Shown here: piece after piece, positions 3,618 through 62,085 of the stretch | How positions within the stretch are numbered: position 1 is the first letter of the stretch | How the letters are laid out: every line of letters starts with the position of its first letter | Assembly: GCA_001829185.1 (NCBI GenBank) | Contig: MIAR01000011.1 | Location: forward strand, 1-64,000 | DNA length: 64,000 bases | Source of the DNA: Spirochaetes bacterium GWB1_60_80 | GTDB taxonomy: Bacteria > Spirochaetota > Spirochaetia > Treponematales > UBA12059 | Direction: 5' to 3' | Made by a program: the position numbers and the translations under genes | Notes under the pieces: generated by a model | The model's database searches: none | What the model was told of the DNA's origin: nothing | What the model saw: the letters and a program-made list of their open reading frames with translations, nothing else

Positions 3618-3710
3618 CAGGTTGTTGAAAAAGCCGGTTGCTTTCTCAACAACCTTAACAATTCCTCGCATAGCTTGCGCTATGCTGCGTAATTGTACCG
3701 GCTTTTGAAG
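3615..3710 (-). mobile_element. truncated TA-flanked element, copy 2
   Basis: A reverse-orientation copy lacking the outer left hairpin. It begins with the TA inside the stop codon of the pentapeptide gene and follows the consensus until ...GGCTTTTGAAG at 3710, then leaves it. The central CATAGC hairpin and the right arm are intact. Confidence 0.85.
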
Positions 3711-6343: not shown

Positions 6344-6511
6344 TAGCAGGGTGTTGAAAAACGCGAATGCGGCTTTTTAACACTTCCAAAACAATCACAA
6401 TTGCATAGCATATTCGCCAGAGTACTGGCGCGCAAGGTATGCGAGCGCCAGTACTCTGGCGAAAATTGTTAGGTTGTTGGAAAAGCAACCAGCTTTTTCA
6501 ACAACCGGCTA
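6344..6511 (+). mobile_element. 168 bp divergent TA-flanked element, copy 3
   Basis: A variant copy with the usual TAGCAGGGTGTTGAAAAA left end and TTTTTCAACAACCGGCTA right end. The central hairpin is replaced by a perfect 19 bp inverted repeat (TTCGCCAGAGTACTGGCGC and its complement) around GCAAGGTATGCGA. It lies upstream of the sigma-factor gene and may overlap its promoter. Confidence 0.85.
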
Positions 6512-6586: not shown

Positions 6587-6721
6587 TAACAGGGTGTTGA
6601 AAAACGCGGATGCGGCTTTTCAACACTTCAAAAGCCGGTACAATTACGCAGCATAGCGCAAGCTATGCGAGGAATTGTTAAGGTTGTTGAGAAAGCAACC
6701 GGCTTTTTCAACAACCTGCTA
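6587..6721 (+). mobile_element. 135 bp TA-flanked element, copy 4, in amylase 5' end
   Basis: A full copy placed between a GGAGG ribosome site with ATG (6582-6584) and the body of the amylase gene. TA occurs at both borders (6587-6588 and 6720-6721). Deleting the element with one TA rejoins ATG-ACT-AAT-GGT-ACG-ATG-ATG in frame, reading MTNGTMMQAFHWY. Confidence 0.93.
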
Positions 6722-8191: not shown

Positions 8192-8246
8192 TACCAGGCT
8201 TTTGAAGTGTTGAAAAGCCACATTCGCGTTTTTCAACACCCTATTA
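8192..8246 (-). mobile_element. mini form of the TA-flanked element, copy 5
   Basis: A 55 bp partial copy holding only the left hairpin (TGTTGAAAAGCC...TTTTTCAACA), with TA at both sides. It lies between the amylase stop and the ada start and is slightly diverged (CACATTCGCG in place of CGCATCCGCG). Confidence 0.75.
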
Positions 8247-10090: not shown

Positions 10091-10225
10091 TAGCAGGGTG
10101 TTGAAAAACGCGAATGCGGCTTTTCAACACTTCAAAAGCCGGTACAATTACGCAGCATAGCGCAAGCTATGCGAGGAATTGTTAAGGTTGTTGAGAAAGC
10201 AACCGGCTTTTTCAACAACCTGTTA
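10091..10225 (+). mobile_element. 135 bp TA-flanked element, copy 6
   Basis: A full copy between the unknown gene ending at 10069 and the PIN toxin gene. Its right-hand TA plus the next base forms the TAA stop codon of the toxin gene on the minus strand. One base of the left hairpin loop differs (GCGAATGCGG). Confidence 0.92.
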
Positions 10226-23157: not shown

Positions 23158-23565
23158 ATGCCGTACGCGCCCTGGCTGGTGCCTCTGTCCTTGATCAGCT
23201 TCGTGGCCTTCGGGTGCCTGATGGTTGTACTACTGAGCTTGCCGAGCGGCTGGCACAGCCTGGCCCGGCGCTATGCCAGCCAACGCGCCGACGAAGTAGT
23301 CACCGTCGGTTTCCAGAGCGCCGGTTTTGGCCTGGTCAGCTACCGCTTCTGCCTGACCATCGGCGCCACGGCCGATGGCCTGACCCTGGCAGTGGCCGGT
23401 CACTGGCCCACCACCATCAGGTTCTATCACGGCCTGTCGCCAGAACTGCTCAATGCCTGGCCGCAGCCGGCGGCGGGCAACCCGCGGGAGACGCTGTGTC
23501 AGTTTATTCCCGGGAACATGCCGCCATTGAAAGCAGCGCAGTACCCGCCACTAGCAGGGTGTTGA
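23158..23565 (+). CDS. hypothetical membrane-anchored protein, end altered by element
   Basis: A 135-residue frame with one N-terminal membrane span (VPLSLISFVAFGCLMVVLLSL) followed by SGWHSLARRYAS...VGFQSAGFGLVSYRFCLTIGATADGLTLAV. This resembles a widespread family of small proteins with one span and a W-x-x-LA-x-RY motif, but the last 55 residues do not continue in an obvious way. The final codons (AGC-stop) come from the inserted element whose TA is at 23552. Function unknown; an upstream frameshift or truncation is possible. Confidence 0.5.
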   Translation: MPYAPWLVPLSLISFVAFGCLMVVLLSLPSGWHSLARRYASQRADEVVTVGFQSAGFGLVSYRFCLTIGATADGLTLAVAGHWPTTIRFYHGLSPELLNAWPQPAAGNPRETLCQFIPGNMPPLKAAQYPPLAGC

Positions 23566-23686
23566 AAAACGCGGATGCGGCTTTTCAACACTTCAAAAGC
23601 CGGTACAATTACGCAGCATAGCGCAAGCTATGCGAGGAATTGTTAAGGTTGTTGAGAAAGCAACCGGCTTTTTCAACAACCTGCTA
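23552..23686 (+). mobile_element. 135 bp TA-flanked element, copy 8
   Basis: A full copy in the gap before the first methyltransferase fragment. It forms the left border of a 422 bp tandem duplication. Confidence 0.92.
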
Positions 23687-23711
23687 GTAGCGATACTACC
23701 GAAGGAACACC

Positions 23712-23987
23712 ATGGATTACCAAAAAAACTACACCGCCATCAATGCTAAAGTCTGGGACGCCTGGTCAGCGGAAGAATTTGAATGGACCATGCCGATTTC
23801 ACACCAGGACTTCGCGCAAGCCTTAAACGGCAGCTGGGCTATCAAACTCACGCCAGTCCGAACCGTCCCCAAGGAATGGTTTCCGCCATTGAAGGGTTGC
23901 CGCGTCTTGGGACTAGCTGCCGGCGGCGGCCAGCAGATGCCGGTTCTGGCGGCGCAGGGCGCGCTATGTACCTTAACAGGGTGTTGA
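23712..23987 (+). pseudogene. methyltransferase 5' fragment, first copy
   Basis: Residues 1-88 of a class I SAM methyltransferase (MDYQKNYTAINAKVWDAW...) ending in the SAM-binding motif VLGLAAGGGQQ and GALCTL, followed by TGC-stop encoded by element copy 9. A GAAGGAACACC ribosome site precedes the ATG. Without the remaining domain it should not be active. Confidence 0.85.
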
Positions 23988-24108
23988 AAAACGCGGATGC
24001 GGCTTTTCAACACTTCAAAAGCCGGTACAATTACGCAGCATAGCGCAAGCTATGCGAGGAATTGTTAAGGTTGTTGAGAAAGCAACCGGCTTTTTCAACA
24101 ACCTGCTA
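23974..24108 (+). mobile_element. 135 bp TA-flanked element, copy 9
   Basis: A full copy between the two identical methyltransferase 5' fragments, generated as part of the 422 bp duplication. Confidence 0.92.
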
Positions 24109-24133
24109 GTAGCGATACTACCGAAGGAACACC

Positions 24134-24409
24134 ATGGATTACCAAAAAAACTACACCGCCATCAATGCTAAAGTCTGGGACGCCTGGTCAGCGGAAGAAT
24201 TTGAATGGACCATGCCGATTTCACACCAGGACTTCGCGCAAGCCTTAAACGGCAGCTGGGCTATCAAACTCACGCCAGTCCGAACCGTCCCCAAGGAATG
24301 GTTTCCGCCATTGAAGGGTTGCCGCGTCTTGGGACTAGCTGCCGGCGGCGGCCAGCAGATGCCGGTTCTGGCGGCGCAGGGCGCGCTATGTACCTTAACA
24401 GGGTGTTGA
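24134..24409 (+). pseudogene. methyltransferase 5' fragment, second copy
   Basis: The same 5' fragment as 23712-23987, again ended by an element (copy 10). This is the copy adjacent to the 3' part of the gene. Removing copy 10 and one TA joins codon TTA to ATG-GAT-ATC and restores one intact frame of about 257 codons. Confidence 0.85.
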
Positions 24410-24530
24410 AAAACGCGGATGCGGCTTTTCAACACTTCAAAAGCCGGTACAATTACGCAGCATAGCGCAAGCTATGCGAGGAATTGTTAAGGTTGTTGAG
24501 AAAGCAACCGGCTTTTTCAACAACCTGTTA
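24396..24530 (+). mobile_element. 135 bp TA-flanked element, copy 10, inside methyltransferase
   Basis: A full copy interrupting the methyltransferase gene. The TA of codon TTA (Leu 88) is the target and is present at both borders (24396-24397 and 24529-24530). Confidence 0.93.
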
Positions 24531-25040
24531 ATGGATATCAGCCAAGTACAGCGCAACCATGATCAGATGGTAGCCACCCGCGAGGGATATACCATTAGCA
24601 TCATCGATGGCGACATGAGCCAGCCCTTCCCCTTCCCTGCCAATAGTTTTGATTTGATCGTGCACCCCGAATCAAACAACTGGATCCGCGACGTCCGGCA
24701 CCTGTGGCGCGAGTCATGCCGGGTCCTGAAACCCGGCGGCATCTTGCTGGCCGGCTTCGCCAATCCCCTGCTTTACCTGTTTTCAGGCGATGAAACCCCG
24801 GCCGATTTACGGGTTACCAATAAATTACCGTACGACCCCATCGCGACGCTATCCGAGGAAGCTCTGTCCAAAATGGCGGAAAACTCCATCCAGTTTTCGC
24901 ACTCCCTGGAATCGCAAATCGGCGGCCAGCTGGAGGCTGGCCTCCAGCTAACCCATTTACTGGAAGACGTCCACCACGAGGGGGCCTTGGCCGCCTTCAC
25001 GCCGGCCTTTATCGCTACCCGGGCCGTCAAACCGGCCTGA
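24531..25040 (+). pseudogene. class I SAM methyltransferase, 3' part
   Basis: The remaining 169 residues: MDISQVQRNHDQMVATREGY, then GDMSQPFPFPANSFDLIVHP (SAM methyltransferase motif region), WRESCRVLKPGGILLAGF and a helical C-terminus. The frame extends upstream into the element (ATG at 24474), giving a 19-residue alien N-terminus starting MRGIVKVVEK. The family methylates small molecules or proteins; the substrate is unknown. No ribosome site is seen before 24531. Confidence 0.85.
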
Positions 25041-26622: not shown

Positions 26623-26676
26623 TAGCGGCTTTTGAAGTGTTGAAAAGCCGCATCCGCGTTTTTCAACACCCTGCTA
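26623..26676 (-). mobile_element. mini form of the TA-flanked element, copy 11
   Basis: A 54 bp copy with only the left hairpin, in reverse orientation, bounded by TA on both sides (TAGCGGCTTTTGAAG...CACCCTGCTA). It has nearly the same extent as the mini copy at 8192-8246, suggesting a discrete form. Confidence 0.8.
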
Positions 26677-26771
26677 GACACGAAGGCACATTGGCGTTCA
26701 TGGGCCTTTTTCTAAACCTCGCCAAGCCTTCTGATGGCAGTTTCGCCAAGTTGGCGAAGGGAGGGATTAAC

Positions 26772-27728
26772 ATGGCTGAAAGGCAAAAAATCATACCGAG
26801 TTTGTGGTTTGACCAGCAATGCGAGGAAGCGATGAACTTTTACGTTTCCGCATTTTCAGGCTTGTCGGGCAGTAAGCAAAAATCCGGTATTATTTCGATC
26901 CAGCGCTATGAAAAAGGGATGGAAACGCCCGGGATCGAACAGATGACCGGAAAAATTCTGACCGGAATATTTGAGTTGGAAGGCTTCCGGTTTATGGCCC
27001 TGGACGGAGGGCCTATTTTTAAGCTGAATCCTGCCATCTCCTTCTTCCTGAATTTTGATCCCGCCCGGGATACGGACGCCAGGAAGCACCTTGACGCTTT
27101 ATGGGAGAAACTGGCCGAAAGTGGTCAAATATTGATGGAAAAACAAAAATATCCGTTCAGCGAACAATACGGCTGGGTTCAGGACAGATTCGGCGTCAGC
27201 TGGCAGCTGATTTTAACCGATCCGCTGGGGGAACCCCGGCCGTTTATCGTCCCCTCCTTGTTGTTTGTCGGCGCGGTGGCCGGGCGGGCCGAAGAGGCAG
27301 CCGAATTGTATTTATCAATATTTAATAACGCTAAAAAAGGAGCACTATCCCGCTACCCCGCCGGCATGTCGCCGAATAGGGAAGGGTCTACCATGTTTTC
27401 CGATTTTAGGATCGAAAGCCAGTGGTTTGCGGCCATGGACAGCGCTTACAAGCATGGATTCGCCTTTAACGAGGCAATTTCCTTTTTAGTGAACTGCGCG
27501 AATCAAAAAGAGCTCGACAGGCTCTGGGAAAAGTTATCCTTTTCTCCCGAACACGAGCAATGCGGCTGGCTGAAAGACCGTTACGGCGTTTCCTGGCAGA
27601 TTGTTCCCGAACGGCTGGGTGAACTGCTTTCCGATCCTGACGAAGAAAAGGTGCTTAAGGTAGCGAATGCGATGCTCAAGATGAAAAAGCTCGTCATCGC
27701 CGATCTGGAAGCGGCCTACAGGGAATGA
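26772..27728 (+). CDS. tandem PhnB-like (glyoxalase/VOC fold) protein
   Basis: A 318-residue protein made of two PhnB/3-demethylubiquinone-methyltransferase-like repeats. Each has the pattern I(I)PSLWFDQQCEEAMNFYVS or PSLLFVGAVAGRAEEAAELY at the front and CGWL/YGWVxDRFGVSWQ(L/I) at the end. The start is the ATG after GGGAGGG; the longer frame starting in the mini element is not supported. Codon use is more AT-rich than most neighbours, as is the next gene. The substrate is unknown. Confidence 0.88.
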   Translation: MAERQKIIPSLWFDQQCEEAMNFYVSAFSGLSGSKQKSGIISIQRYEKGMETPGIEQMTGKILTGIFELEGFRFMALDGGPIFKLNPAISFFLNFDPARDTDARKHLDALWEKLAESGQILMEKQKYPFSEQYGWVQDRFGVSWQLILTDPLGEPRPFIVPSLLFVGAVAGRAEEAAELYLSIFNNAKKGALSRYPAGMSPNREGSTMFSDFRIESQWFAAMDSAYKHGFAFNEAISFLVNCANQKELDRLWEKLSFSPEHEQCGWLKDRYGVSWQIVPERLGELLSDPDEEKVLKVANAMLKMKKLVIADLEAAYRE

Positions 27729-48781: not shown

Positions 48782-48916
48782 TAGCAGGTTGTTGAAAAAG
48801 CCGGTTGCTTTCTCAACAACCTTAACAATTCCTCGCATAGCTTGCGCTATGCTGCGTAATTGTACCGGCTTTTGAAGTGTTGAAAAGCCGCATCCGCGTT
48901 TTTCAACACCCTGCTA
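48782..48916 (-). mobile_element. 135 bp TA-flanked element, copy 12
   Basis: A full copy in reverse orientation upstream of the AraC gene. It ends at the TA (48915-48916) that touches a 12 bp hairpin. Confidence 0.93.
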
Positions 48917-61950: not shown

Positions 61951-62085
61951 TAGCAGGGTGTTGAAAAACGCGGATGCGGCTTTTCAACACTTCAAAAGCC
62001 GGTACAATTACGCAGCATAGCGCAAGCTATGCGAGGAATTGTTAAGGTTGTTGAGAAAGCAACCGGCTTTTTCAACAACCTGTTA
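61951..62085 (+). mobile_element. 135 bp TA-flanked element, copy 13
   Basis: A full copy. Its right-hand TA (62084-62085) is also the left-hand TA of the unrelated element at 62086-62319. Confidence 0.93.

Follow-up and report, generated by a model that had tools for sequence, protein, structure and literature searches.

The window analysed here is a stretch of 64,000 nucleotides (contig MIAR01000011.1, positions 1 to 64,000) from Spirochaetes bacterium GWB1_60_80, whose genome is a draft assembly of 59 contigs. At a methyltransferase locus between positions 23551 and 24531 lies a tandem repeat with a period of 422 bp, 2.3 copies and 100% matches. It is built of three 129-bp elements, all identical, which alternate with two 293-bp spacers, both identical. 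Each spacer runs from CTAG to TTAA and holds 28 bp of upstream sequence and the first 88 codons of the methyltransferase; a genome-wide search found it at the array's two positions only. A sequence-only reading had described two 422-bp units followed by a third element and the 3' part of the gene, and the identity of the elements and of the spacers bears this out. The features are as follows:

23551 to 23554, no strand: left CTAG, the 4-bp target duplication of the first element (from reading the flanks)
23555 to 23683, plus strand: first element, 129 bp, flanked by CTAG on both sides, 28 bp upstream of the first methyltransferase start codon
23684 to 23976, plus strand: spacer copy 1, CTAG...TTAA, 293 bp, with the 5' part of the gene (reading frame from 23712)
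23712 to 23987, plus strand: methyltransferase 5' fragment, copy 1, with 88 native codons and then an element-derived TGC-stop; contains the SAM-binding motif GLAAGGGQQ
23977 to 24105, plus strand: second (hybrid) element, with TTAA as its left flank and CTAG as its right; this is the recombination joint
24106 to 24398, plus strand: spacer copy 2, same sequence as spacer copy 1
24134 to 24409, plus strand: methyltransferase 5' fragment, copy 2
24399 to 24527, plus strand: third element, flanked by TTAA on both sides, within the methyltransferase gene
24528 to 24531, no strand: right TTAA, the target duplication of the third element (from reading the flanks)
24531 to 25040, plus strand: methyltransferase 3' part, 169 aa, with a Methyltransf_11 match; its frame opens inside the element at 24474

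The frame upstream of the array (23158 to 23565) ends inside the first element, and its native 3' end may also be altered; it has no Pfam or NCBIfam match.

The interrupted methyltransferase gene

The two 5' fragments, with starts at 23712 and 24134, both run into the next element and stop there after ...ALCTLTGC. When the 5' and 3' parts were searched separately, with the gene left unmended, they were found to abut in relatives with a gap of 0 nt at 80 of 80 named loci, and at loci such as L032, L033 and L035 both parts lie in one open frame. Because the two parts adjoin without a gap in all 80 named relatives, the gene is really interrupted, as the sequence-only reading had proposed. That reading had also named a circumstance that would speak against it, namely relatives whose gene naturally lacks the joined region; the region is present in every one of the 80. 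Given the adjoining parts and the single frame at such loci, ALCTL|MDISQVQ is the ancestral reading. The same join had been predicted by excising the last element together with one TA. The join stands, but the TA does not: the duplicated target is a 4-bp TTAA of the YTAR type.

Both gene parts in the window align to intact relatives; eight of these were found elsewhere in the order, outside the window's family. Within that family, 22 further genomes, including one of the same genus, gave no homologue. A profile of the intact relatives matches 8k76_A over positions 5 to 253 (5.4e-116), and 8k76, the nearest structure that has been solved, carries the annotation SAM-dependent methyltransferase. 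Full-length homology thus assigns the gene as a predicted class I SAM-dependent methyltransferase of the 8k76 group. In NCBIfam no model scored above its cut-off for the methyltransferase, and a contig search with the 3' fragment alone gave no match.

The conserved motif GLAAGGGQQ, at residue 67, lies in the 5' fragment, apart from the remainder of the domain, which the 3' part contains. Hence both fragments are probably non-functional. This split suggests that the methyltransferase function has been lost.

The 129-bp element and its target sites

The element is non-coding, with inverted ends CAGGGTGTTGAAAAA / CAGGTTGTTGAAAAA and the end sequence CAGGKTGTTGAAAAA; the three copies in the array read CAGGGTGTTGAAAAA...TTTTTCAACAACCTG. 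Its left end has about 187 matches in the 3.6-Mb genome, against none for a reversed-pattern control. Among the best 40 matches, 38 show 100% identity across 131 bp, suggesting that the element expanded recently. It is short and non-coding, has terminal inverted repeats, duplicates a fixed 4-bp YTAR target and is dispersed in high copy number; it is a MITE-like repeat. No match to it was found in Rfam, and no element ends that differ in the inner base turned up in a pattern search.

The direct repeat at the element's flanks is 4 bp long in 107 of 118 strand-counted copies in this genome, and lengths of 1 to 3 and 5 to 8 bp do not occur. The element targets YTAR, with a preference for C two bases ahead of the site and for G two bases behind it. 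Genome-wide, in a flank set of 63 distinct copies, each entered once for either strand, the duplication is perfect in 58, has one mismatch in four and two mismatches in one, whereas random pairing of flanks would give 24% matches and 26% differing at two positions. The sole copy with two mismatches is the middle element of the methyltransferase array. The flanks at the locus are, in order, CTAG/CTAG, TTAA/CTAG and TTAA/TTAA. The first and last elements are thus complete insertions with their own targets, and the middle element joins the end of one spacer to the beginning of the next.

REPIN and REP sequences carry inverted tetranucleotide tags beside hairpins and have no target duplication. 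This class was rejected for the present element, whose flanks are direct and not inverted repeats, including non-palindromic pairs such as CTAA...CTAA and TTAG...TTAG.

After rejoining, the empty site lies in a frame that stays open over 596 bp in only 10 of the 118 strand-counted copies, compared with 54% of random positions, all drawn from the 64-kb window. Insertion inside genes is therefore rare, and the methyltransferase locus is unusual.

Further complete 129-bp copies lie in the window at 1415 to 1543, 6590 to 6718, 10094 to 10222, 48785 to 48913 and 61954 to 62082; the copy at 10094 has CTAG/TTAG flanks, with one mismatch. A diverged relative of 162 bp (6347 to 6508), with a longer inner hairpin and an imperfect right end, adjoins an intact copy. 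Partial copies with one recognisable end each are found at 3618 to 3710 and 8200 to 8243. An element end at 26637 to 26673 stands on the 5' side of an open frame, 26637 to 27728, which has a 3-dmu-9_3-mt match, and the listed start of this frame may be element-derived.

Other genera and families of the order carry related elements, with an identity of about 69 to 79% across most of the sequence. In an alignment of ten sequences, which are related to each other and were picked for similarity, three hairpins comprise 47 pairs, and at 21 of these at least one sequence has changed both sides and kept the pair. Such compensatory changes are support for, rather than proof of, conservation of the hairpins. 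One relative (G014) carries a second subfamily with CAGGCTGTTGACAAA ends and matching stem changes (L204-L208, L212, L209, L213), as well as solo 36-bp end hairpins beside YTAR-like sites.

A mobilising enzyme was sought in the draft assembly with three transposase families, PF01609, PF13546 and PF13751, and none had a match. PF01609 was also searched in six relatives and gave one match, in G003; it had none in G005, G014, G051 and G023, four of the five relatives searched in which the element family occurs. Draft genomes often lack multi-copy insertion sequences. Where two element ends in G005, G051 and G014 stood an IS-like distance apart, they proved to be nothing but further short elements and solo hairpins. 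A search of the genome's own contig ends for an autonomous element found instead other repeat families and one contig (C27) that starts inside the element. Two of these other families recur at many contig ends (L154, L155, L166, L167, L173 and L183; L161, L170, L180, L185 and L186) and are probably the ends of multi-copy elements at which the assembly broke off.

It is conceivable, though unlikely, that the element belongs to an order-wide family of hairpin-structured, YTAR-targeting repeats, which would be moved by a type of transposase not yet linked to such elements and whose copies would serve as ready-made recombination sites that duplicate or delete gene segments. Literature searches found no report of a YTAR target.

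History of the locus

The array very probably arose by two insertions of the element in the same direction and one later tandem duplication, brought about by recombination between elements. A 129-bp MITE-like element would have inserted at CTAG, just upstream of the class I SAM-dependent methyltransferase gene, and another copy in the same direction at TTAA after codon 88; either insertion may be the earlier. The insertion at TTAA would have added 133 bp with an immediate stop and so broken the gene. Later, the two identical elements, on sister chromosomes or during replication slippage, would have recombined out of register, duplicating one element and the 293 bp between, and giving a middle element whose left and right flanks stem from different sites. 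This history builds on features that can be observed directly (element identity, spacer identity, the flank pattern and the seamless junction in relatives), from which we infer the order of events and the existence of the duplication in cells.

Two same-direction insertions followed by unequal crossing over had been the proposal of the sequence-only reading. The insertions and the duplication hold, with flanks as predicted, but crossing over is indistinguishable from slippage or template switching. Bacterial direct repeats recombine both with and without RecA, and sister-chromosome crossing over, slippage and reintegration of an excised circle would be expected to give the same product. Replication slippage or template switching between the elements, perhaps aided by their hairpins, has in our view slightly less than an even chance of being the route taken in place of sister-chromosome crossing over. 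Short repeats (129 bp) lie close together here (422 bp), shuffled sequences fold much less well than the element does (z about -8), and in bacteria direct repeats have been documented to recombine independently of RecA (PMC4627823). In that study, on Deinococcus, it proceeded by single-strand annealing and gave deletions, not duplications. The two routes yield the same product, and the sequence favours neither.

The second unit might also be an assembly artefact, with both insertions real and the repeat loop traversed twice. The assembly looks short-read, since many sampled contig ends share repeats of about 90 to 107 bp and C27 begins inside the element, and the copy number of the unit rests on this 59-contig draft. 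With an element of only 129 bp and about 187 occurrences, a loop of 422 bp could be miscounted either way. However, flanks correctly joined in 58 of 63 copies, against 24% at random, indicate that the assembler did resolve the element; a false loop would require support for a joint that does not exist; and the collapse of identical tandem copies is presumably the more usual error. An assembly error is therefore unlikely.

It is highly improbable that the middle copy came from a separate, third transposition, or that the unit moved as a composite transposon, although elements of the same type do lie on both sides of the segment. Matching 4-bp flanks would be expected of an independent insertion, whereas those of the middle copy, TTAA and CTAG, each equal the target of one neighbour. 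A composite insertion predicts one new duplication around the whole unit, and none is seen; nor did the genome search find the unit elsewhere. The composite transposon was rejected for lack of a duplication around the unit, and an independent insertion is disfavoured by the mismatched flanks. That the two fragments are separate natural genes is hardly credible and was rejected: the 3' part is indeed open from an ATG inside the element (24474 to 25040, 188 aa), but the gap-free junction extends from the 80 named relatives to the closest same-order homologues, and loci such as L032, L033 and L035 hold both parts in one frame.

The locus, as reconstructed from two insertions and one duplication, records three steps, and its history can be read from one sequence because the target duplications label each of them. 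This suggests that a 129-bp element is sufficient to seed the tandem duplication of part of a gene. Events of this kind are already known and their mechanism is ordinary; the locus is an unusually clean example. The orphan element family is a more interesting lead than the duplication mechanism: with three hairpins kept across related genera and no match to the three transposase families searched in this assembly, it poses a concrete question for spirochaete genome evolution.

Comparison with known systems

The tandem amplification of aphA1 mediated by IS26 resembles the array in that copies of a segment are bounded by directly repeated mobile elements (PMC9602291). IS26, as described there, is an autonomous insertion sequence that amplifies a whole, selected resistance gene, whereas the present element is non-autonomous and the duplicated segment is a gene fragment under no evident selection.

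The MITEs of Haloquadratum walsbyi share the multi-copy, non-coding nature of the element, and some are apparently mobile although no functional matching transposase was found; they are archaeal and unrelated to it. The available portion of that report describes no comparable tandem duplication bounded by MITEs (PMC3119063).

MITEPsy1 of Pseudomonas syringae pv. phaseolicola is a non-coding element of 100 nt with inverted ends carrying TCTGAAAAAG; it duplicates a 4-nt target (CTAG or YTAA), interrupts genes and has been shown to transpose (PMC3189936). It is attributed to ISPsy2, a presumed parent of the IS5 family present in the same host (PMC3189936). For the present element, IS5-family derivation is not supported: the draft of its own genome has no PF01609 match, and only the YTAR target and TGAAAAA in the ends resemble MITEPsy1. 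The two also differ in size (100 nt, against 129 bp with three hairpins), in number (six copies, against about 187 left ends) and in the presence of ISPsy2, against no PF01609, PF13546 or PF13751 transposase found here. In its short non-coding sequence, inverted ends, 4-nt duplication and interruption of genes, MITEPsy1 is the published element closest in behaviour to the one in the window.
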